Below are positions 42,788 through 58,434 of a stretch of 64,000 nt of DNA, piece after piece. The notes beneath the pieces are model-generated. The model made no database searches. It was not told where the DNA came from and was given only the letters and a program-made list of their open reading frames with translations. Position 1 is the stretch's first letter; each line of letters begins with the position of its first letter. This DNA comes from Symbiodinium sp. CCMP2592 (lineage: Eukaryota > Sar > Dinophyceae > Suessiales > Symbiodiniaceae), in assembly GCA_905221615.1 (NCBI GenBank), contig CAJNDT010000591.1:1075825-1139824 (forward strand), written 5' to 3'. A program made the translations under genes and the position numbers.

Positions 42788-42792
42788 AGGGT
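42788..42792 (+). repeat. Target-site duplication, left copy (AGGGT)
   Basis: AGGGT directly precedes the 5' LTR and is repeated directly after the 3' LTR at 56874-56878. Five bases is the usual length for Ty1/copia integration. Confidence 0.9.
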
Positions 42793-42954
42793 TGTAATTT
42801 GTGCACGTGTGAAGTATCATGTTGTGTGTATGGCATTGTGGCACAAGTGCTCTGAGTGAAAAAGAGTAGATGCCCAATGGTATAACTGCGTTATTCCTCA
42901 ACACTTGGACGGGTGTACAACAGTGCGTGTGTGCAGTGGTTTACAACAACTATA
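42793..42954 (+). repeat. 5' LTR
   Basis: Starts TGTAATTTGTGCACGTG and ends TTTACAACAACTATA (TG...TA rather than TG...CA). 162 bp, with no differences that I can see from 56712-56873. It should carry the promoter and polyadenylation signals of the element; I see no clear TATA box, as expected for dinoflagellates. Confidence 0.95.
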
Positions 42955-42966
42955 GGTTATCAGCCG
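42955..42966 (+). promoter_or_regulatory. Candidate primer-binding site
   Basis: GGTTATCAGCCG directly follows the LTR. It resembles TGGTATCAG, the site complementary to initiator Met tRNA used by many copia elements, with one inserted T. The same 17-base string beginning TAGGTTATCAG recurs at 43470-43486. Confidence 0.45.
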
Positions 42967-43536
42967 TATCGCTCGTGAAATCGATGCTGACTGCGAGACC
43001 GTGACCCAAAACTCCGGGGGGTCAAAAACCTGGACGGGCAGCCATGTGCTTATGAGCGCCTAACATGAGGGTCCGGTGGCTCACACCCTCAGGCCATGAA
43101 GCTCTGGCTGAAAAAGCGCAGCTTGGCGCCACTGGTTGTGCTCCGCCCTTTGCGGTGCTGCGAGTGCCTTACTTGGGGAGGCAAAAGCCCATGCCGAACA
43201 GCGGGGGCCCGTGTGGGGGGGAAAAGCTCCACATCAGTGCCTGTGGCGGGAGGGCAAAATCCTGCTAGTGTCGTGAAGGGAAACGGGGACTCGTTGGCGA
43301 ACCACGCTGTTGCTCACCAAAGCGGGGGGTGTTGATTCCCTCCAAGCAGTAGCCCTCAAGACGCCTTGCCGGCGTGCGTCTTACCTTGCTTGTAGCTGCG
43401 CAGTCCTGCAGTTACGGCTGGGTAAGGGTGGGCACATGCAAAGTATTGTTGGCAGAATTGCCGAGACTTTAGGTTATCAGCCGTATAGCCTACGGCCTGG
43501 TCACAACTGGTTGGTTACAATACAATCAATCAGCGC
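42967..43536 (+). other. Retroelement leader (untranslated, with possible packaging hairpins)
   Basis: About 570 bp before the gag start, without a conserved long frame. Includes a hairpin TGAGGGT ... ACCCTCA at 43067-43092 and the repeated TAGGTTATCAGCCGTAT just before gag. Expected to hold dimerisation or packaging signals and the spliced-leader acceptor; these are inferences. Confidence 0.5.
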
Positions 43537-46119
43537 ATGAGCGAACCGGAACTTATTCCTGCAAGTATGGATACAGTTACAAGCACCGTGAACCCTTTTC
43601 AGCCCCCGGTCACGGGTGGCCGTACAGGGAGCGGCGCCCCCGGCTTAGTTTTCCCGGCACCAGCCTCAGTCCAACAATTCAACGTCTTCGCACCACAGTA
43701 TAGTGTCGAAGTACACGTTAACCAGATCAGACTGGAAGTCGGAGAACTAGAGGCTCAGGCAGAAGCTAGACACAGGCAACACATGCTGACCTATCAAGAA
43801 GCATCCGCAATTCACACAGCTGACTTGGAGCACAGAGCAGAACGAAACCACCTTGAAGTGGTAGCAGAACTGCAAGCAGCCTTGGCACAAAGCGAGTTCA
43901 AGGCGGCAAATCGCGAAAGGCTCCTGTTGTCGGAAATGACTTTAAGTCAGGCGCATTCCTATGACGAAGATCAAAGGTTGCGTCAAGAGCTAGCGGAACT
44001 TCAACAAAGCCGAATCACAGACGCATTGGATCAACATCTGGCGGAATCACCCTTTGCACAGAACCTCGAAGAACAGGCGAGACGGCACGTCCAGAATTCC
44101 CAGGAAGTCATGGTTGAACAGTTCCAAGCACACTTTGAGTTGTTTAGGAACAGGCAGAAAGAAGAGTATGAGGCGTCCCTTGCTGTATGCAGGGAACAGA
44201 ACGAAGAGCTTCAGGACAGGTTGGATTCTGCGGAAACTGCACTAGAGAAGGTCTTGGATCAGTACAATCCAGCTACTCCAAAGAGTCAGCCAGTGCCTGC
44301 TCCAAGCACCCCTGCAGGTCCCTCTGTTGTCCCCAAAGCTCCTCAAGCGCCCATGTTCTCAATGCCGAACGTAATCCCCCAAGGTGCCAGATGTCTGTTC
44401 GAGTCAATGAATCCAGGAGGTTTGAATGCTCAGTCCATTCCGTCTGCAACAGCATCTTCAATCCCCAAGGCAGGACCTTCCCAGGCAGCGCCAGGAACAG
44501 CGGCCCCTCCAGCGGCCGACTCCGGCACGCCAGGGACGGAGGCTTTCAACACAGGTCTCCTAGAGACCCAAATGGCAATTCTTCAAAGCCTAAGAACCTT
44601 AAGGGGTGAGAGCAAAGGCGATGCTGACAAACCCAAAGCGAAAGAAGCAGAGTCCATCAACCTTCCGGATTTCCCAAGTCCAGAGTCGTATCGTTCATGG
44701 AAAACGGCAGCTAGGGAAGCGGTCAGGGCAGCATCAGATTCTCCTGATGAGGCGTTTAAATGGGTGATGAAGGCCTACGACAAAGACGCATCGCAGGAAT
44801 CCCTTCGAGACCCTGAGAAATTCCTCACCCTTGACACGAAACTTCTTGCTGCACTCACCAAAGTCGCTAGGGGAGAACTCTCCCGAGAAATCCTCATTTT
44901 TAAGGAGACAGAAGCGGCGAAATTCAGGGCGGTACGAGGACGACAGGTGCTCTACCTCTTCGATCAGTACTTCAAGACGAACGAGGAGGTTGGCTCACTG
45001 TACTCCGTGGAGGACCTGCTGAAAGTAAGGTTAATCAATGACGACCTTTCAGTGTTCATTAGCAACTGGGAATCTGTCATGTCTGGACTTAGCCACACAC
45101 CGGACGAAACGACCCTAAGAGACATTTTCCTTCGTGAACTCAGGCAGTCCAAGAGGCTAAAGTACGATCTTGAGATTTACGACAGGGCATCAGAGGGCAC
45201 GGATCAGCACACGTACAGGTTTCTTGTGAAGTCACTTAAGGATCTTTTGACCCGAGAGCGCAAACGCAAGAACCGTGACCGCATCGCAAGATCTCACGGA
45301 GATAAGTACGGTGCCCCTGCCTCAAAGTCTCCTGGCCGAACTTCCAGCCCCTCTTCAAGAGGAGGCCGTGGCAGATCGCAGAGCCCAAGGCCAAGATCAC
45401 CCAGCAAAGGTAGATCCCAGTCTCCCAGCAAGCCTAGGACACCTAGCCCAAAGGGAGTATGCTACGATTTCCTCAAAGGAACTTGCAAGCGAGGCAATAA
45501 CTGCCCTTTCCTTCACAAGAAGAGATCATTGTCCCCCAAAGGCGACAAACAGAAGAAGAAAATCAACGTGACATGCAAGTTCTGGAAAGAAGGCAACTGC
45601 AACAAGGGTGACAAATGTCGGTTCCAGCATAAGGATGTAGAGAAGCCGTCAGCTCCCGCACCCAAGTCCGAAGCCGCCCCGGCAGCTCCAAAGCCAGGGT
45701 CACCTAGGGCCAACTCCCCTGCCCCGCGCAGAGGGAGAAGTCCCAGGGCCAAGTCAAGTGACAAGGCTCCAAAGACGGCCGCATGCGCCATCGCGTTCGA
45801 GAATACAGCGGATCTTGAGATCTCGCCAAAGCTCGCTATGGCAGCGTCACATGACGAGGACTACTGGGAGGTAGACTTCACCGGCAACAAAATCATCCGC
45901 CATCACAAGAAGTACCGAACGGATTGGTATGTTCCTGACAATTCATGTCCTGTGAACCCCAAGAAGCTTAGGAGCCAAGCCAAGCTCGAGCAGGTTTTGC
46001 CGGTCTCCCCTTTTGTTGGAAACAAGATCTACAATCTACAACTGGAGGAAGACCCCAACCAAAGGACCCGGCAGCACATGGGTAGGAAAGACGATCTTCT
46101 ACATGCAAGAACTCCCTAA
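43537..46119 (+). CDS. gag: Retrotransposon gag with coiled coil and two CCCH zinc fingers
   Basis: 860 codons from ATG. Residues about 60-265 are Glu/Gln/Leu-rich heptads, a long coiled coil. A Pro/Ala-rich linker follows. About 365-580 is a capsid-like region (INLPDFPSPESYRSWKTAAR; LLKVRLINDDLSVFISNWES) typical of copia gag. Then a Ser/Arg/Pro-rich stretch. Two CX7CX5CX3H fingers lie at 642-660 and 680-698 (CYDFLKGTCKRGNNCPFLH; CKFWKEGNCNKGDKCRFQH). These replace the CCHC knuckle of ordinary copia gag and would bind RNA. Near the C-terminus comes DYWEVDFTGNKIIRHHKKYR, a motif repeated in the pol frame. The frame ends at TAA 46117, overlapping the protease frame by at least 100 bp. Acts in particle assembly and RNA packaging. 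Confidence 0.92.
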   Translation: MSEPELIPASMDTVTSTVNPFQPPVTGGRTGSGAPGLVFPAPASVQQFNVFAPQYSVEVHVNQIRLEVGELEAQAEARHRQHMLTYQEASAIHTADLEHRAERNHLEVVAELQAALAQSEFKAANRERLLLSEMTLSQAHSYDEDQRLRQELAELQQSRITDALDQHLAESPFAQNLEEQARRHVQNSQEVMVEQFQAHFELFRNRQKEEYEASLAVCREQNEELQDRLDSAETALEKVLDQYNPATPKSQPVPAPSTPAGPSVVPKAPQAPMFSMPNVIPQGARCLFESMNPGGLNAQSIPSATASSIPKAGPSQAAPGTAAPPAADSGTPGTEAFNTGLLETQMAILQSLRTLRGESKGDADKPKAKEAESINLPDFPSPESYRSWKTAAREAVRAASDSPDEAFKWVMKAYDKDASQESLRDPEKFLTLDTKLLAALTKVARGELSREILIFKETEAAKFRAVRGRQVLYLFDQYFKTNEEVGSLYSVEDLLKVRLINDDLSVFISNWESVMSGLSHTPDETTLRDIFLRELRQSKRLKYDLEIYDRASEGTDQHTYRFLVKSLKDLLTRERKRKNRDRIARSHGDKYGAPASKSPGRTSSPSSRGGRGRSQSPRPRSPSKGRSQSPSKPRTPSPKGVCYDFLKGTCKRGNNCPFLHKKRSLSPKGDKQKKKINVTCKFWKEGNCNKGDKCRFQHKDVEKPSAPAPKSEAAPAAPKPGSPRANSPAPRRGRSPRAKSSDKAPKTAACAIAFENTADLEISPKLAMAASHDEDYWEVDFTGNKIIRHHKKYRTDWYVPDNSCPVNPKKLRSQAKLEQVLPVSPFVGNKIYNLQLEEDPNQRTRQHMGRKDDLLHARTP

Positions 46120-46861
46120 GGTGAGTTTCGACAGCACAGTAGAAATGATTGCCATCGAACCGGAAGGAAAGCAGAGAAAGCATGCCTACCTTCCCAGGGT
46201 TTATGACGAAGTCTATCCCACTGTCGAGAAATGTCCACGCTCGAACCCTAAGGATCTGAAGAGGGCTCTTGTGTGGGCAAAGCAGTTTGCCACCATGATC
46301 GAATGCATGGTACACGACACGCCTGCGGGATGCGGGTATGAATGCATGGAGGAAGGCTTCCTCTGCGAGGAGTGCGAGCGACTTGCACGTCCGTCATGTG
46401 CAGGTCTGGTCCCCGGCTTAGAATTCCTAGCGGATACCGGAAGTGAAGAGGACCTCATCAGCAAGTCGGACTGCAGAACTCACTTCCCCGACGTACCCAT
46501 AGAACCCGCCTCACGTCCTGTCTCTCTGATCACCGCCAATGGGCCGGTAAAAGGTAATGAAGCCGTTAAGCTTGAGGTCCCTGAAATCAACAAAATCCTC
46601 GAATGCTACGTGCTAGATTCAACGCCGCCGGTGTGCTCTGTTGGTAGGAGATGTATGGACGAGGGTTTTGATTTCCATTGGTACGCAGGGAAGACGCCTT
46701 ACTTCGTGACACCCGAAGGCCGGAAACTTTACTGCAAGCTGCGCGGGCGAGTCCCGGTAATTGGGGATGGTACAATCGCTGTTCCCGCCAAGGATGAGAA
46801 GTCGGCTCATTCGCCAGTCATCCAGGCAACGTCGGGTTTTCCCCGTTCAGCGGCCTACTAA
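46013..46861 (+). CDS. Retrotransposon aspartic protease segment (+1 frame)
   Basis: Open frame in +1 relative to gag, without a natural start, so probably made as a gag-pro fusion by frameshifting or present as a frame-shifted copy. The retropepsin site reads LEFLADTGSEEDLIS, with the catalytic Asp at about residue 141 of this frame (codon at 46433), followed by LITANGPVKGNEAVKLEVPE and a Cys-containing C-terminal region. The upstream part (about residues 1-130) contains Cys pairs (CGYECMEEGFLCEECERL) that could bind zinc. Cuts the polyprotein. Overlaps the pol frame at 46799-46861. Confidence 0.88.
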   Translation: MLETRSTIYNWRKTPTKGPGSTWVGKTIFYMQELPKVSFDSTVEMIAIEPEGKQRKHAYLPRVYDEVYPTVEKCPRSNPKDLKRALVWAKQFATMIECMVHDTPAGCGYECMEEGFLCEECERLARPSCAGLVPGLEFLADTGSEEDLISKSDCRTHFPDVPIEPASRPVSLITANGPVKGNEAVKLEVPEINKILECYVLDSTPPVCSVGRRCMDEGFDFHWYAGKTPYFVTPEGRKLYCKLRGRVPVIGDGTIAVPAKDEKSAHSPVIQATSGFPRSAAY

Positions 46862-49800
46862 GGCACGCCAATGCAGCAGAATCCGAGCCGGAAGGCGAAT
46901 CCTCGGGCAATGGCCTCGACCCCAGGATCGAAAAAGCACTGAAAGAGGCTGCTCCGTTAGGCATAAAGGCGGAGTACTTGAACAAACCAGGTTGGGTTTC
47001 GCATCCTTCCTTTCCACAGATGATCGTGGGGCACTTTCCCAAAACCTTTAGAACGCCTGCTACAAGGTTTCCAAAGCATGTCATCCGGAGTACTTGGACT
47101 TATGTCAAGAAATGGCAGGAGATCGAAAAGGACGTGGATGTAAGGACGTTGGACAATCGGGTAGCCAAGCTCCCTTCTGATGCCTGCATTCTCAGTGTAA
47201 CGATCTTTAAAAGACCTGTTGATGACCCCGAGCCGGAGCCTGACAGCGAAAGAGAAGCTGAAGCTGACCCAAAGGACGAAAAACGTTCAGCCCAGCTCAA
47301 GCTGCAGGCCAACAGCCCGGAGCACAAATTCACCCACCGTCCTAAGAACCCTTTCTGCAAGGTATGCCAAAAGGCCAAAATGCTAGCGCCGCATGCCAGA
47401 AAGCGAGGGGGGAGCTCCACTATCTTTTCGAAGAAGTTCGGAGACCACGTGACAATTGATCACATTGTGACCAAGGACTTGCGTGATTTTGGGATCGAAG
47501 GTGAGAAAGTTGCTCTTGTGGTTAAGGACGTGTTCACTAACTTTCGTTATGTGTACCCTGCAGGTACGAAGGAGTCGGAAGAGGTTTATGATTGCCTGTT
47601 GCACTACTTCACCGTAGATGATGAACCAGGGATCATTTACTCCGACAACGCCCCCGAACTCAAGAATGCTACTGGAAAATACAAAGTTCGTCACAACACC
47701 TCACGACCTTACGTCGATGAGAGCAAGTCTGTTGTTGAGAGAGAGATCCGAACTGTGCTCGAGGGCACACGGGCGAACTTGCTGCAGGCAGGACTTCCAA
47801 CGAAGCTCTGGCCCTTAGCTGCTCAACATCACACTATGGCTCTAAACTTGTCCAAAAGGATGGACACCGCGAAGATCCCATGGGACGAAAGGTTCGGTGA
47901 AGGGTTTAGCGGTAAGCTCATTCCTTTTGGTGCCAAGGTTCTCTATTGGAACAATCCCAAAGAGAACATTACAAATGCATCTAAGTTCGACCCAAAGGCC
48001 GAAGACGGTATCTTCTTAGGGTACCACATTCAACCTGGCTTCATTTGGAGACAGGAATACCTCGTAGCTCCCTTAAAGGGTAGCCAAGATGCAATTGACA
48101 ATGACGACCTGAGAATCATTCGGGTCAAGCGCATGGAACTTCCGATAGGGGATATGGTTTTTCCTCTCGCGGTTTCCGAGGATCAGGGGGGTGATCCACC
48201 CAAGCTTCAGGATCAAGACTGTGTTTTCGCAGCTAAGGAGACCACACTTCCTCCTTCAGGTGGTATCGACGACATCTTTGGTCCTAAAGAACTTGACCCT
48301 TGGAACCCAGAGGGCAGAGACGTGGAGGGAGAGCTTGATAAGCTTAGGCAGAGAGCTTCCGAACCCATTTCTGTTCTCGATGAGGACAAACTCCCTGAGG
48401 CTGACGGTAAGTCAGGTAGTGGTTCCAGCCCCCCGGAAGGGGATGGCCGTGGATCATCAACTTACAAACCATCAGATAGCTCCAAACCGAAACCGCCTCC
48501 AGAGAGACATGATCCCTACACCATGCCCGACGGCAAACCTGTGCCTGAAGGATACAATTGGGATGGGATCAGACTGGTTCGAAACAAGAAGGGCTCGAAG
48601 CGACCCCCAGACACCTCTAGCGAGGAATGGCACATGATGTCCCGTAATCAGCGCGAGGCTGACATCGAAAGGTATCAGTCCAAATGCCGTCGCGAGGAAG
48701 CCGCCCGAGCAGAGGTCGAAAGGGATGCTTCTCCAGCTATGCCCGTAATGACATGTGAAAACGAGCCTCATCGTGTCAAGATGGCAACCCTCTACTGGGA
48801 AAAGTTAGGGGAACTGTCCGCTCTTGAGTATGCGTTGGTAGCCAGGGTCGTCAACCAAGCCGAGATTGATCGCACCCCAGCAGCCAAGGCAGCTATGGAC
48901 AAAGAGTGGCAGAAGCTAGTCGATAAGTCTTGTTGGTTGCATTCGAAGGTTCGTGAGTTTCGTGATGTTTCCGCTGAAGCAATCAGGAAAGGCATCAAAA
49001 CACACTTCGGAAGAATCTTCGAAATCTGCAGCATCAAGGGCGACGAACTTCCAGAAGGACACCCTGACAGGAAGTGGAAGGGACGTAGCGTGTTCCAGGG
49101 GAATCGGGTTTCAGATGAACATAACGATCATGCGATCTTCTCTGAACTCGGATCCAGCCCCGCTTCAATGGAGGCCGCTAAAGTCATCGACGTCTTCGGT
49201 AGCCAGCCAGGGTACTCGAAGCAACAAGCTGACGCGAAGCAGGCTTACACGCAAGCATTATTTAAAGGGGTAGAAACTTGGGTCAGACTCCCGCGCAACC
49301 GGTGGCCTAAGGAATGGCGAGGGTTTTCCGACCCAGTCGTGCCCTTAATGTTAGCCCTCTACGGACACCCGGATTCCGGCGGAATCTGGGAGAAACACTG
49401 TGAAGACCAGTTGAAGACCGTAGGGTGGACCCCGGTATTGCCCGAGATCTGGCAGTCCATTTTCTATCACGCTGAACTTGATCTTCTTTTGGTCATCTAC
49501 GTCGATGATTTCAAGATGGCTGGGCCAACTAAGAATCTCGCTAAGGGATGGGCGACAGTTGAAAGTGTCATAGACATGGATCCTCCTGAGCCTTTTGGTA
49601 GGTACTTTGGTCGTAATCATTTTGAGAAAACCCAGGTACAACTTCCCAGGTCAGCACATCCGTTTGCATACGTGTTCGACAAAAGGACGGCTGCTCCAGC
49701 CCGGGGTGACCCGAGGCCACAAGTTCGAGAAGACTTCTGGGAAGTCGATACCGAGCTCGGTGCAGTTGTTCGTCATCACGTGTATCCTAGGAAGAGGTTG

Positions 49801-52800
49801 TATGTTCCCACCAACAGGGACATTGAGGTTTTCCCAAACTTGTCAACAACCAGGGTAACCGCTTTCGATGAAGGTCCGATTGAGGAACACGATGTCAATC
49901 TTGACCCCAACCTTAAGCGCGAGGAGTGGTGGACCGGCCGATCCTTGTTCCCGTTACCAGGTCACGATGCCGAAAAGATCAGACACGCTCTAGCTGCCTC
50001 CAAAGGCAAGCCGTCTAGATCTAAGGCCGAGGCCAAAAGGGAAGCCAAGGAACAGAAGTTCAAGGGAACAGACACGATTTGCAAAGACGCTATTCCTTCT
50101 ATGGATAAGCCCGTGAACGTTATGACATATGACATGAAAGACTTCCTGATTTCTTGCGTGGACAGGTACTGTGATCTTGCTAAGGTCTCGAAGCAGTCCC
50201 TTACCAATGTTCCAACTCCGTTTTCAGAGAACAGAATTGCTAAGCCTACTGAGGGGGAGGAACCATCTGGTCGCCTCCAGCCAATTGCTAGCAAGGTTCT
50301 CATGAAAATCCTGTTTGCCGCGAGGATGGCACGATGGGATCTCCTGCGGGCTACTCAAAGCCTCGCCAGTAGGGTGACGAAGTGGAGCAGGGACTGCGAC
50401 GCAGCACTTCACAGGCTTGTCTGCTACATCAACTCTTCACTTGATGTTCGGATGCAGGGATTTATCGGGGATCGCATCAGTGAGTGTAAACTTTGGCTGT
50501 TCTGCGATGCAGATTGGTCTGGGGAACATGACCGCAAATCAACCTCAGGCTGTGCACTGTATCTCGTGGGGCCAAACACCTATTACCCATTGAATGCCTT
50601 TTCCAAGAAACAGACCAGTATCACGATGTCAAGCACCGAAAGCGAGGTCATCAGTGCTAACCATGGTGTTCGCGCTCAGGGATTGCCCAGCCTCAGCCTT
50701 TGGATTTTCCTATGGCAACAGGTTGAGATCAATTCAGCCAACCATCAGGTTAGGCCAAAGAGACCTCCACCCATCAAGATCGATGGTGTTCTAGCAAGAG
50801 TTGACCCCGAACTTGACGAGATCAGGTACGGGGGAATCCCAGGTGGACGATCGGTAGCCAATCTTCAGGGTTTGAATGTGGGCTTGAGCGATAAGTTTCG
50901 TGTTCAGTTCCTTGAGGACAACCAAGCGACGATCACGATCGTTCACAAAGGTGACAGTGAAAAGATGCGACACACTGATCGCACTCAGAACATCAGTTTT
51001 GGATGGTTGAAGCAGCAGTTCGAGATGGAACATTTCGATATGGTCAATGTTGATACGCTCGAACAGGTTGCCAATATCTTTACAAAACCTTTCGCCGAGA
51101 AGACCAAGTGGCTTCACGCTCTCAGGTTGATCAATCACAATCTGTGCCCTACTGTTGCCAACAAAGGTGGCAAGGACTCAGACAGTCATTTGGTTGCGAA
51201 ACCTCAGATTGCAGCCGCCAGCCATGGCCGGCCAGAGCTCGAAGCCACTGCTGAAGGTCTACTTCAGGCTAAGGATTTTAGTTTTGAGGGTTTGCAATCA
51301 GTTGCATCACAATTTCCAGTGAAGGTGAGCAAGAGACGCAGGTCTCGTCTTACCACGAACGACAATTCATACTATCACAATTGGGGTTTCTTTTCGTTCA
51401 GTGCCATGCAAGGGATTACCAACATTACTAAACGGTACCCTTTAGCGTGTAGATACATGAACGAGTGGATCAGCAAACATGCACGTCGCGACTTCACATG
51501 GACTTCGATCGCGGTGAATCGTGACGCTAAATCCTTGTTGCATGCGGATTCACGGAACCTTAAGGGAAGTGAAAACTTCGCGATTAGTTTCGGGGATTTT
51601 TCTGGAGGTTTGTTGTGGGTTGAAGGGATGCCGGGACAGGGTCCGGCCACCCAGACTAAGGACAATGGAAGCGTTGTTACTGGTGGAACTCACAACACGA
51701 AGCACTCTCCGTTGTACTTTGCCCCTGACCTACACCACTGCGTGATGCCCTGGAAGGGCACCCGCTTTGGATTGATCGCTTTCACTTCTTCCCAGGTAGG
51801 TAGTATTAACAACGAAGTAAGAGAACAATTGGAGATATTGAAGTTCAGGCTGCCCCAACCAGCTGCGGTCGCTGCTCCAGCCCGGCTTTTGCCGAGGCCA
51901 ATTGCATGCACCGATCAGGGGGGACTGAGTCTTCAACGGTGGTGGATTGCGGTTCGCCATGAAACTCCATCACAATGGTTACCTTTGACCCGCCTCATCA
52001 CTTCTGTTCGCGATGAGGGGGGAGCATTCATTATCACTTCACTTTCGTTTGTCACGGTGGTCATGACATCGCTCTCAAAGGGTGACTTGAGGAGGTTACA
52101 AAGGAGCATTGTTGAGATTGTTGAAATGGCTCACTTGTTTTCCAGTAACTTCTGTGTTCTCTTGTGTGGGCCCGTCGACGAATTCATGTTCGACGGAATT
52201 AATGCCGAAATTGCACGACTTGAAAACGCATATCTGGTGTGCGCAGGGCTCCAGGCATTGCCACTTGCGAACCGTGCTAAGGAAAGCTTCCGCTCAGGAA
52301 ATAAGCATCCGATCGCTAAGGCATCTTACAAGCACGAAGCCGCAGATCATGATGATTTAGAGGATATCACATCTTCACATCTTGCTAATCTTGCGAACTT
52401 TAGGAAGGTGCTTGCCTGCCCCTGTGCAGCGGCTCATCAGAGCACGCCAGAGATGATCAGTGATCCCCGAGTGCGAGCAGAAGGCGAGAACAAGCCGTCG
52501 GCGCCAGCGACGATTGCTGCATCGGGTGACTCAATCAAGCGGGAGTGGGCTCACTACCATATGTGGGCCGGTGTCTTCGGACACGAGCTCGGACTCAACC
52601 CAGACCGTGACTGGGAAGAGAGCGTGAAACAGCTCTACACAGGCGCAATCGCGCAAACCGCTTTGTCTACGTGTCTGGGAGATGTTGATCATGGCTATAA
52701 GGCCCTCCCTAAGGTGGCACGGATCAACGACGAGGGGTTGTCGCGTTTCCAGCCCGGCGATAGCCGAGGCCGCGAAAAAGCCTGCATCATTGTTTCCGAC

Positions 52801-53922
52801 TCTACCCTCATTTTCAAGGCTGGGGCGAGAACATTCGTTGAGATGGCGGACGACTTTAAAGCTCTGACGGGGCCTGGTCATATCCTTCAGCAATACACGA
52901 ATGTCCGACAAAAGGCGATTTGGGGAGGCAACCTCCACTCGATCGTTGAGGCAGTTCACACGCTCTTGCCGCAGATCATCAACGAATCGTTAAACCCCTT
53001 GCATCTCGAGGTCGATATCGTTGTGATTTGGATGGGCAACGAACTGTGCGGTCGTAGAGGAGTCTTCGTCGACCCAGGGACGCCACACTGGCAGATTGGT
53101 CCTGAAGGCGTTGCCGCAGAAGGGATCTGGGCGGACATTGCCGCACGTGTGTGCTGTGAGATTGGCCGTCTAGCCGCCCTTCAGGGCAGGCCAACGGTGG
53201 GCTCAGTGCAAATCCTCTCGGATGCCGACCCACTGGACTACGGGCTGCCAGCAGAGTACCGCACAGCTATCCGAAAATTCCTCGGATACGCAAGGAGTAG
53301 GGGGTTGTACACCGCCTCTCTCAAAGAAAGCGTATGCCAGATCCCGAAGCACGACCACTACCACTTCCGCGAAGACTCAACACATCGCGCAGCCTTGGCC
53401 TCTGCGATCGGACAGCGGATTAAAGTGTGTCAAGCTGACCACTTATTCGCGAAGATGCCCGCAGAGACGCTGGACGAGCTGGCCCGCCGTTTTCCTTTTG
53501 ATCCAGAAGGAACGCGGGTGTATTCCATGCAGTATGTCTTCGACAAGGCACTGTATCGTTCCCAGCTCTCCCGCCGCCTTTTAAGGCAGGCCGAGATTCG
53601 CGAAGCTGCGAACGAATGCCCTGATCCATGGGAATCCCCTTATGTTCCTCTACCTGATCTTCCAGTCACTGGAATGCGTGAGGTCCCTCAGGATGTCCTG
53701 AATTGGGAATGGGCCACAGCTCGCGAACAGGCGCAAAAGCGCAAGAGCAGGCGGAAGCACGTGCCCGTGCTGAGCGGACGGATCCAGCCCCACTTAGTGG
53801 TGGCCCATCTGGCAGTGCATCATCTCGCGACGTACCGGAGGTGTCCTTTGACGATGTCATCGAGGCCATCCCTTACCGCACAGAGTCTCACCGTACTCTG
53901 TCAGCGGCAAAAGAGGGCATGA
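46799..53922 (+). CDS. pol: Retrotransposon polyprotein: integrase, reverse transcriptase, RNase H, TET/JBP-like dioxygenase, SGNH-like domain
   Basis: Open from the codon after a TGA at 46796; there is no ATG near the start, so it is a -1 continuation of the protease frame. Positions below count from 46978 as residue 1. HHCC zinc site with first His at 116 (HKFTHRPKNPFCKVCQKAK). Integrase triad D161, D223 (YSDNAPEL), E254. RT with ADAKQAYTQALF and YVDD at 841-844. RNase H starts at D1177 (CDADWSGEHDRKSTSG; TMSSTESEVISANHG). From about 1460 to 1620 a double-stranded beta-helix dioxygenase: HADSRN (H1522, D1524), ISFGDFSGGLLWVE, APDLHHC (H1586 or H1587) and Arg1596, as in the TET/JBP family. 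From about 1840 to 2160 an SGNH-hydrolase-like domain: SDS at 1940-1942, WMGNE at 2018-2022, DHYH at 2126-2129. The last about 60 residues look out of frame. Copies and integrates the element; the two extra domains may modify DNA and hydrolyse esters. Confidence 0.92.
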
Positions 53923-56285
53923 CCAAGAAGGACCGGGACCCTTCCAGCGGCCTATTAAGGGCTCGCCCACACGACTACATTGGGGTAAAGTACCAAGACG
54001 ACTTGGACCTGATGGAAATGTGTGGCTTCGTTGACGAGGATGTGTGCCCAGAGGATCCGGAGGGGAGCGAGATCGTTCAGATCCTCCCCGACTCGATCCC
54101 GAAGGACCACCTCCCTGAGTTGGGCCTCAAACCTTACGTTGAGCGCTACCTCACAGGTGCTGTCCGAGGGTCGAACGTGAAGCTCAGCTCACGGCGCGGG
54201 AAATGGATTCGCATCCAAGAACTCATTCAGCATATGTGGAAGAGGCACCGTGTGGATCTGGGAACACGAGGTATCTTGTCCTTAGTCGCCTACGATAACA
54301 AATCGAGGTTCAACTTGGCAGGCCTCCCCACCGATCCGCGTGCTGACTTCATTGAGACGGACATTTGGCCCTCTTGGATTTGTGCTTCGCATGGTCACAG
54401 CGAACGCATCAAGGACCAAGTGACCGATGCCTCCATTGCGCTGCATTGGTTCACGAACGATACGCGAGAGGAGCTTGGACCTTCAGCCGCCTATCAAGGC
54501 AGGCCATTCCTTGCTCTCGGGGAGTTTCCCCCGCGTCTCTACCACAGGACGACGCATGATGCTGCCTTCAACATTCTCAGTTCCGGCTTTACGCCAGGGT
54601 TCAACAGGAGCGGCAAGTTCCACAATTACTTTGCCAAAGCCACCCTGAGCGAACTTGAGAATAAAGCTGGCAGCAGAGCGAACCTGCCCTACGAGATTGT
54701 GCTCGACACTCAGGAGGTCAATCGCTATGCATACCTCTTCGAGACAACCTCCGAAGGCATACTCACTCGCGATGCGGTGCCGGGGACATGTGTGCTATAC
54801 ATCCGCGACACCATCAAAGGCATCATCCTGTGGTCTCGTCAATCCAGCGAGGAGGAGGATACAATCATTCCGGAGACTGCTCAGGATCCCATCGTCGATC
54901 CTGGAGCAGCTGAGCCGGAGCAGTTCCCCGATGTTCCGGAGGAACCTTCAGCCCCACTTAGTGGTGGCCATGAAGAAGAAGAAGCAGCAGCGTCTGCAAC
55001 GGCAGACGAACCCATGGTTGAAGTTGAGATTGAGGAGGGACCGTCAGCATCTTTGGCACCCCTCGCTCTCAATGACGCCACGGCCTCCGACCTCCTTCCA
55101 GAGGAAACGGCAACATTGGACCAGGGGGGAGCATCACCACCAGATGTGCAACCTGAGTCCAGAAAGCGTATTCGTTTCCTCGAGCCGGAAGATCCCGTTG
55201 AGGTCGAGATCGAGATCGAGCCGGACGAAGGCGATGTGAAAAAGGAGGAAGAAGTCAAGGTTGAGCCGATGTACGAGCAAGCGCCTCCGCAGCCTACATC
55301 CACGCCTTTGGCACTCCCTCCAGCCCCCGTTACGGGTGGCCGCCACAGAGCTTGCCCCCACTGTGGGACGCAACACCTTGTGGGACAGATGATCTGTCTC
55401 AGCTGTGGCGTGCACATTGTGAAGCCTTCTCAACAGAGCGCTCGCAAAAAGGTGCGGACAGCCCGATGGTTCGCCGAACAAGCTGCAGCGGCCACGGCCG
55501 GTAAACCGCGATCCCAGCTCACTCCAGAGGAGGTCATCCACGAGATGACGAGGGATGCTACCACGCAACGCGGGACTACCTCCTTGGACGCAGAGGCACT
55601 TGACAAGGCGCGGCAACAGCTGAAAATGGCAGTGAAAGGAGGATACACCAGCATCGTCCACCGGTTCGATAATGATGTCGATTACACCATGAACTCCATC
55701 GGCAATGGATTCGACCGGGAATTTCTCGCCATTGAGGATGTCCTCACTCATGCTGGTTTGCCAAACCACGGACGTTCCAAGGAGCAGAGGCAACTCGCTA
55801 TCGGCACCTATGGCGGCGCAGACGGCCCTCGGAACCAGGAAATCGCAAGGTTGCTCTACCTGCACGAGTGCAATCCAGCCGCCCTTAGGGCAGGCCTGAT
55901 TTCCGCTGTCAGTGACGATCCTTTCTGCATCATGTGGCTTGGAGGGGCATACAGTCTGCGTAAGTTCGTAGATGTTTTCCTTCAGCACAAAATCGTGCGA
56001 ATGATCGTGACCTTCTCAGAGGAAGCACTCTACATTGACCCACGTGTCGGATATTCCGCTGACGAATGGGTCGAGTGGCTTCAGTCGAAGTTTGCGGATC
56101 AGGTAGGAGTTGCACGTCGTGCGTATGAAGAGCGCCAGCGCAATGCCGAACGCTCTCGCATTGCACAAGCTAAGGCTGACGCACGCAGAGTCGAACAGCA
56201 GCGATACCAACAGGATTGGGACCAAGGCTATCAGCGCGGGTCCCACCCCTACGGTCGCTCCTCTGGTTCCCGAGGATGGTACTAA
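53703..56285 (+). CDS. RNA 2'-phosphotransferase (Tpt1/KptA)-like protein with zinc ribbon, encoded by the retroelement
   Basis: Open in -1 relative to pol, overlapping it by about 220 bp. Residues about 135-370 follow the Tpt1/KptA order: a winged-helix-like part (VKLSSRRGKWIRIQELIQHM), ICASHGHSE at 226-234 in place of the usual IRA.QGHS, PPRLYHRTTHDAAFNILSSG (YH at 280-281) in place of LYHGT...I..GL, then a YFA segment and YEIVLDTQEVN, EGILTRDAVPGT. Known Tpt1 uses an Arg-His-Arg-Arg set; here His of the first pair and the IRA Arg are replaced, so normal activity is doubtful. An acidic linker carries PLSGG repeats. A zinc ribbon follows (CPHC and CLSC, about 547-566), then an unknown C-terminal domain of about 270 residues ending Arg/Gln/Ser-rich. 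Family would remove a 2'-phosphate from RNA using NAD+; role in the element is unknown. Confidence 0.78.
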   Translation: MGMGHSSRTGAKAQEQAEARARAERTDPAPLSGGPSGSASSRDVPEVSFDDVIEAIPYRTESHRTLSAAKEGMTKKDRDPSSGLLRARPHDYIGVKYQDDLDLMEMCGFVDEDVCPEDPEGSEIVQILPDSIPKDHLPELGLKPYVERYLTGAVRGSNVKLSSRRGKWIRIQELIQHMWKRHRVDLGTRGILSLVAYDNKSRFNLAGLPTDPRADFIETDIWPSWICASHGHSERIKDQVTDASIALHWFTNDTREELGPSAAYQGRPFLALGEFPPRLYHRTTHDAAFNILSSGFTPGFNRSGKFHNYFAKATLSELENKAGSRANLPYEIVLDTQEVNRYAYLFETTSEGILTRDAVPGTCVLYIRDTIKGIILWSRQSSEEEDTIIPETAQDPIVDPGAAEPEQFPDVPEEPSAPLSGGHEEEEAAASATADEPMVEVEIEEGPSASLAPLALNDATASDLLPEETATLDQGGASPPDVQPESRKRIRFLEPEDPVEVEIEIEPDEGDVKKEEEVKVEPMYEQAPPQPTSTPLALPPAPVTGGRHRACPHCGTQHLVGQMICLSCGVHIVKPSQQSARKKVRTARWFAEQAAAATAGKPRSQLTPEEVIHEMTRDATTQRGTTSLDAEALDKARQQLKMAVKGGYTSIVHRFDNDVDYTMNSIGNGFDREFLAIEDVLTHAGLPNHGRSKEQRQLAIGTYGGADGPRNQEIARLLYLHECNPAALRAGLISAVSDDPFCIMWLGGAYSLRKFVDVFLQHKIVRMIVTFSEEALYIDPRVGYSADEWVEWLQSKFADQVGVARRAYEERQRNAERSRIAQAKADARRVEQQRYQQDWDQGYQRGSHPYGRSSGSRGWY

Positions 56286-56711: not shown

Positions 56712-56873
56712 TGTAATTTGTGCACGTGTGAAGTATCATGTTGTGTGTATGGCATTGTGGCACAAGTGCTCTGAGTGAAAAAGAGTAGATGCCCAATGGT
56801 ATAACTGCGTTATTCCTCAACACTTGGACGGGTGTACAACAGTGCGTGTGTGCAGTGGTTTACAACAACTATA
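56712..56873 (+). repeat. 3' LTR, followed by AGGGT target duplication (56874-56878)
   Basis: 162 bp, no difference seen from the 5' LTR. The right flank resumes AGGGTTTCGAGTTTA, consistent with an uninterrupted TTTAGGG-like site before insertion. Confidence 0.95.
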
Positions 56874-56878
56874 AGGGT

Positions 56879-58150: not shown

Positions 58151-58434
58151 GCGGTCAAGGGTTCTTGCATGAAAGCAGCCGTTTGTTGCAGTGTAGGCAC
58201 CCTAAGTCCTAAACTCGCAGCCGGGATGCTAATCACGATGAGAACACAAAACCCTCAACCCTAAACGGCCCTAAACCCTACACACAGGTAACCGAGATTC
58301 TACGGAGGATCTTCGAGCCTACATGCCAAGCCCTGATCCCCGAACACTCAACCCCAAACAGAGCACCTAAGCTAACTCTTCGAAGCCTTCAAAACTTCAA
58401 ACATTTCATTGGAATAAGCCTCGCTTGTACCCGA

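Follow-up and report, generated by a model that had tools for sequence, protein, structure and literature searches.

Mobile elements are already known to capture enzymes, and the described systems closest to the element reported here come from fungi and from dinoflagellates. In fungi, DNA transposons and Helitrons of several lineages carry TET/JBP dioxygenase genes, as the accessible part of PMC12730594 describes; these are likewise mobile elements with a TET/JBP dioxygenase, but whereas the fungal carriers are DNA transposons and Helitrons, the domain described below lies in frame within the Pol protein of a dinoflagellate copia element. The SymbioLINE-Dnmt and SymbioDIRS-Dnmt3 elements (available text of PMC5890265) are, like ours, retroelements of dinoflagellates in which a captured enzyme acting on DNA (in ours, a putative one) is kept under purifying selection; the captured enzymes are, however, cytosine methyltransferases and not an oxygenase. 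According to the same partial source, Symbiodinium copia elements lack DNMTs, and neither TET nor JBP nor dioxygenase appears as a word in its main text as available. Our literature search, which covered titles and abstract openings with subscription journals mostly outside its range, found, among the papers listed, no retrotransposon with a TET/JBP domain, and as far as the literature searched shows, base-oxidase-like domains at several positions inside LTR-retrotransposon Pol are unreported.

TET and JBP enzymes use Fe(II) and 2-oxoglutarate (2OG) to oxidise the 5-methyl group of 5-methylcytosine (5mC) or thymine (T). The domain studied here resembles TET2 and CcTet in its HxD...H iron site and in having a basic residue beyond the distal His, features also found in NgTet1, CMD1 and JBP1/2. 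It differs from TET2 and CcTet in that similarity is low, the alignment is confined to parts of the catalytic core, and the domain is lodged in a retroelement polyprotein. Neither a Cys-rich nor a J-binding domain was matched by Pfam in the element.

Organization of the copia element

The element lies in a stretch of 64,000 nucleotides of Symbiodinium sp. CCMP2592 DNA (the window), and measures 14,081 bp from LTR to LTR. A 166-nt direct repeat at 42789 and 56708, trimmed by inspection, gives two identical 162-bp LTRs, the 5' LTR at 42793-42954 and the 3' LTR at 56712-56873, both on the forward strand; the sole mismatch within the repeat falls in the flank, outside the LTRs. The 5-bp target-site duplication AGGGT occupies 42788-42792 on the left and, in the same letters, 56874-56878 on the right. 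From the identical LTRs and the 5-bp duplication, the element is a complete and recent copia insertion.

All coding features are on the forward strand. A gag-like ORF (43489-46119) contains two CCCH zinc fingers at about 45457-45516 and 45574-45630 (zf_CCCH_4, E 1.2e-12), and is followed in a different frame by a protease ORF (45956-46861) with the motif LADTGSEEDL (gag-asp_proteas, E 0.038, below the cut-off; DTG recognized by eye). The pol ORF of 2374 codons, as given by the ORF list, runs from 46798 to 53922. It contains the integrase core at 47500-47712 (rve, E 2.5e-4, below the cut-off, with SH3_retrovirus after it at E 5.8e-4), the copia-type reverse transcriptase (RT) at 49066-49545 (RVT_2, E 0.0015, below the cut-off; YVDD by eye), and an RNase H region with approximate ends at 50503-51000, recognized by eye from its motifs and without a Pfam match. 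The features of a Ty1/copia element are therefore present, i.e., LTRs, 5-bp duplication and the order protease-integrase-RT-RNase H, with the Pfam scores below the cut-offs and RNase H placed by motif, and the layout is that of an autonomous copia LTR retrotransposon.

Beyond RNase H the pol frame continues into the oxygenase domain and then into a further extension at 52561-53496, which by eye is possibly SGNH-hydrolase-like (SDS and D..H motifs). This extension had no Pfam match and a single PDB match at E 0.72, and is 38-59% identical to protein P0002 per 100-residue bin. The downstream ORF (53682-56285) has a Tpt1/KptA RNA 2'-phosphotransferase match at 54177-54761 (PTS_2-RNA, E 1.2e-9, above the Pfam cut-off) and a zinc-ribbon match at 55353-55409 (Zn_Ribbon_1, E 0.0032, below the cut-off). 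The window copy is split at this point, with the pol frame ending at 53922 and the Tpt1-like frame spanning 53682-56285; P0002 matches both in one chain. The Tpt1/KptA match recurs in a second family of copies (L051), and in P0002 it falls just under the Pfam cut-off.

Spacing worked out by hand from coordinates shows that the stretch from the 5' LTR to the domain (42793-51300) is about 0.5 kb longer in the window copy than in seven other LTR-flanked copies (8508 vs 7962-8031 bp). The window also holds 107 near-matches to two TTTAGGG units of the telomere type, between 1616 and 42791 and at 58252-58282, where a mean of 0.03 is expected, and none of them is within the element. A preference for inserting at such repeats was considered and rejected: because the near-matches are scattered over the window, the position of the element is no evidence for it.

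Predicted catalytic residues of the oxygenase domain

The earlier note had described an open frame with a set of HxD...H...R residues at 51301-51840, and this was confirmed: the segment (forward strand, frame 1) reads through 180 residues without a stop inside the 2374-codon pol ORF, and holds the motifs HADSRN, FGDFSGGLLWVE, APDLHHC and KGTRFGLIAFTS. The note's placement at about pol residues 1460-1630 was some 60 residues too early, since the conserved core, delimited by the alignment, the copies and the profile comparisons, spans 51370-51873, i.e., pol residues 1525-1692, downstream of RNase H.

We examined the predicted catalytic positions both in A1, an alignment of 16 retroelement domains used for column conservation, and in 40 copies from the same genome (L001-L030 and L069-L078; the window copy is L013, and 30 of the 40 are near-identical). 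The first iron ligand, His at 51541-51543, is found in 16/16 aligned domains and 39/40 copies, the exception having Tyr; the Asp at 51547-51549 is found in 16/16 and 40/40. The Asn at D+3 (51556-51558), which pairs with the Asn of TET2 HRDLHN, is likewise kept in all 16 aligned domains and all 40 copies. The distal iron ligand at 51736-51738 is the second His of LHHC; its column is invariant across the 16 domains and the 40 copies, and nearly but not fully so in two further alignments, A4 and A7. The Arg at 51763-51765, the predicted 2-oxoglutarate binder, is present in 40/40 copies, and the aligned domains have Lys in its place in 6/16 (the L055 group). The element copies thus retain the iron triad with one His-to-Tyr change in 40, whereas loss of these ligands among copies had been named beforehand as evidence against an oxygenase; the HxD...H triad is accompanied by a basic residue predicted to bind 2OG.

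Copies in the genome and selection

Searching the own genome (1.098 Gb in 5383 contigs) with 51301-51840 gave at least 151 matches (150 scored of 4678 candidates, hence a lower bound), and only 5 of the domain matches listed have internal stops. The domain is kept in many copies across the genome. Copies of the window's own family (family 1) are mostly 84-100% identical to the window, with one broken copy at 65%, and in 35 family-1 rows among the matches listed the open frame reaches 3086 aa or more. The second family, L051, is 41-42% identical to the window, its copies among the matches listed being nearly uniform. An LTR search of the same genome, with 40 matches scored of 230 candidates, grouped 32 matches into 16 pairs, each made of neighbours on the same strand of one contig, and every pair brackets a copy of the domain. 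Thirteen of the 16 pairs, the window's own included, span 12-16 kb.

The domain is kept under purifying selection. Comparing the window domain with ten other copies, taken from the lower-identity rows of the genome search, gives dN/dS of 0.04-0.12, values in which dN is biased downward because the copies were found through protein similarity. The upstream RNase H stretch gives 0.02-0.12 in the same ten-copy comparison. For one copy, L072, the domain value rests on a dS of 1.35 and the upstream value on 39 codons.

Relationship to the TET/JBP family

Taken alone, the window domain matched neither Pfam Tet_JBP nor any TET chain in the PDB, and the profile of the window family (A6) also had no Tet_JBP match, its one PDB match being a ribosomal protein at E 1.9. 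The Pfam search proposed in the earlier note accordingly produced no direct match. The relationship instead emerges through other retroelement domains. A profile built from the window domain, L051 and P0002 matches the 14 other retroelement domains of A1 at 48-125 bits (E 1e-11 to 1e-35), compared with 6.8 bits for the best of 1600 shuffled sequences, and we reject chance or motif-only resemblance on these grounds. Aligned by hhalign, A6 and the profile of the L031 type (A7) give a probability of 99.7 and E 4.3e-26, and GxR and all three ligands line up.

In turn, the L031 domain aligns with positions 73-162 of the 164-position Tet_JBP profile at E 2.4e-7, below the curated cut-off. Tet_JBP was matched by 14/16 A1 members, and it is the only Pfam family matched at E 0.01 by members of A4 (12/18). 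When the mixed profiles A1 and A4 were compared with the PDB at E up to 10, only 5 of 177635 entries matched, namely three of TET2 (E 6e-4 with A1, 0.0016 with A4) and two of CcTet/JBP1-TET (E about 1), and no AlkB or hydroxylase chain was among them. The TET2 alignment runs through HRDLHN and takes in the Asn invariant in A1; that of CcTet runs through HRD...G and HG...GxR. Because 14 of the 16 A1 sequences were fetched through a Tet_JBP search, there is some circularity in their Tet_JBP matches and in the matches of the mixed profiles to TET2; the closest solved relatives are TET/JBP for A1 and A4, which contain such sequences, and not for A6. Precomputed annotation assigns PF12851 (PF12851.14) to the database relatives P0006, P0009, P0028 and P0029; in the scans run here no sequence exceeded the Tet_JBP (PF12851.13) cut-off of 34.9 bits, the best reaching 30.6.

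To judge from these profile comparisons, the window family's link to TET/JBP appears to be transitive, running through intermediate homologues, but strong. Of the earlier claim that a TET/JBP-like DNA dioxygenase follows the copia RNase H, what stands is a TET/JBP-like 2OG/Fe(II) oxygenase, in frame and with conserved ligands. As the curated cut-off was not passed, we name the domain TET/JBP-like only.

Related domains in other retroelements

When the own genome was searched with Tet_JBP, allowing E values up to 10, 148 weak matches resulted, none above the cut-off and the best at E 2.2e-4. At this limit many of the 148 are at chance level; 30 have E 0.01 or better, and a match was also obtained in one of the 14 control genomes, that of E. 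coli. Many of the matches lie in frames of 1283-1285 or 2700-3400 aa. From the 148 places we chose 14 by eye, not at random, spread over scores and frame lengths. Near-duplicates (L060, L066) and broken or partial sequences (L053, L054) were left out of A1, in which L031 and L036 represent L031-L050 and L051 represents L051-L052. Seven places were followed upstream and four downstream. Among the seven, L084, L086 and L088 could be placed by Pfam matches to one or the other side of the domain; L087-L092 had no useful Pfam match, and at L085, L089 and L090 no long frame ran into the domain.

In the window and L051 families the domain follows RNase H. A second setting, between integrase and RT, is seen in L084-L055-L091 (rve E 0.078 before, RVT_2 E 6.6e-19 after) and in L088-L064-L093 (rve E 4.9e-4 before, RVT_2 E 1.9e-11 after). 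In L058-L094 the domain precedes GAG-pre-integrase and integrase (gag_pre-integrs E 0.0023 and rve E 2.8e-7, both after it). The fourth setting, L031-L083, is an element with RVT_1-type matches (E 0.0047 in the domain's frame, 3.2e-4 in the next frame) in which the domain lies upstream of a methyltransferase-like stretch; it may be DIRS- or LINE-like, its class not being settled by these matches. The domain therefore occupies three positions in copia polyproteins and is also carried by another type of retroelement. The L058 family has at least 6 matches and the L064 family at least 12 (E up to 1e-60), all of them stop-free.

The methyltransferase-like stretch of the L031 type was recognized by eye from FSGT... 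and PPCGTAS, and alone it had no Pfam match and no credible PDB match. Profile A7 had only two PDB matches, both methyltransferases with DNMT2 first, at non-significant E values of 0.46 and 0.6. The oxygenase is directly followed by this stretch in L031 (1387-2766) and L083, and by eye in P0034, P0036, P0039 and P0044. Together they could possibly form a write-and-oxidise pair.

A tree of 21 domain sequences unites the window, P0002 and L051 (95/96); since 13 of its 18 inner branches carry no star and several rows are long, it does not settle the number of captures. A viral or phage origin was considered and set aside, as two viral-contig scans (single proteins) and a phage collection, in which only close relatives are detectable, yielded no relative. 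One divergent copy of the domain, L068 and L090 (G000:C3212), occupies a short frame that is not immediately preceded by a long open one; it might be a remnant or an exon of a host gene.

Possible function and alternative explanations

The explanation we favour, with a probability of roughly 0.6, is that this copia Pol carries a TET/JBP-like dioxygenase that is packaged with Pol and hydroxylates T or 5mC to the element's benefit. Of this reading we infer the catalysis, DNA as the substrate, the base oxidised and the advantage to the element. The oxygenase domain would be made and packaged together with Pol, and would then hydroxylate thymine or 5-methylcytosine at the 5-methyl group, either in the cDNA of the element or where it has newly inserted, yielding 5-hydroxymethyluracil (hmU) or 5-hydroxymethylcytosine. 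A new copy modified in this way might resemble the host's hmU-containing DNA, or silencing by cytosine methylation might be blunted, and retrotransposition or copy survival would be higher. The residue at D+3 bears on which base would be oxidised, as it helps to read the base in TET2, NgTet1 and CMD1; in CMD1 we take it to be Asp350. The CMD1 authors considered that an Asn substituted for Asp350 might form a bond with O4 of T, but the D350N mutant was inactive on T (PMC7854593, accessible portion). Since D+3 is Asn here, as in TET2, the sequence favours neither T nor 5mC. Packaging and action on cDNA before integration have been proposed for DIRS elements with DNMT3 (PMC5890265, in the text available).

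A TET/JBP-like oxygenase could also act on RNA, whether the element's own, the primer tRNA or host RNA. The Tpt1/KptA-like RNA 2'-phosphotransferase encoded by the same element and the two CCCH fingers of the gag-like ORF fit an RNA substrate equally well, and the accessible part of PMC12344493 refers to an RNA-acting TET-like enzyme. On the other hand, the D+3 Asn that is conserved here has its aligned counterpart in TET2, which acts on DNA, the domain stands beside integrase and RT in other families, and in L031-type elements it adjoins the methyltransferase-like stretch, whose substrate may or may not be DNA. These points reduce the probability of RNA to a level we would call unlikely, though by no means negligible. 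The domain could also belong to another branch of the 2OG/Fe(II) oxygenases, such as the AlkB type or the prolyl and other protein hydroxylases, and have only superfamily motifs in common with TET/JBP. The missing direct Tet_JBP match of the window family points in that direction, as does one A1 member that also matched 2OG-FeII_Oxy_3 (E 0.0042). Yet Tet_JBP is the sole Pfam family for the A4 members, in a selection that is partly circular, and the PDB matches lacked any chain of those other branches, so that we regard this assignment as decidedly improbable.

It could further be argued that the domain is a non-catalytic relic or a structural spacer in Pol. It does change faster than RT: between the window and P0002 the two domain bins have 73 and 65 identical residues per 100, compared with 87-90 in the RT (bins 700-900). 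The Arg is replaced by Lys in one group, and some database relatives have lost ligands (P0008 has Arg at the distal His, and the D-N part of P0005 is deleted). Against this, His, Asp and the distal His are kept in every aligned domain and in 39-40 of the 40 copies, dN/dS is low, and the domain is present at several polyprotein positions, all of which makes a relic or spacer very improbable.

On the favoured reading of an active base oxidase in Pol, retroelements with such domains would possibly edit DNA chemically to help their own spread. More tentatively, and with considerable doubt, we suggest that dinoflagellate retroelements are a large reservoir of TET/JBP-like base oxidases, writing hmU (or oxidised 5mC) that marks repeats. 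If so, 5-hydroxymethyluracil would be at least partly a product of selfish elements, and oxidases would be lodged at three or more sites in copia Pol as well as in an oxygenase-methyltransferase-like retroelement.

Host genome and 5-hydroxymethyluracil

In the dinoflagellate Breviolum, MeDIP for 5-hmU shows roughly two-fold enrichment among multimapping reads, and the base is enriched on most repeats, with Maverick rather than copia elements ranking highest; copia elements are among the least accessible, and the authors put forward a possible role of 5-hmU in modulating repeats (PMC11071213, available parts). These are correlations, and they come from another species. No enzyme making dinoflagellate 5-hydroxymethyluracil is named in the available parts of that mapping paper or of a genomics review (PMC11453091). 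A retroelement oxygenase that is conserved, present in many copies and related to TET/JBP is a concrete candidate for such an enzyme.

The setting of the element in a dinoflagellate, assumed in the earlier note, is borne out by a 21-mer that we take to be the dinoflagellate spliced leader. While it has no match within the window, the genome contains 217 + 212 = 429 exact copies, compared with 0 + 0 for the reversed control.
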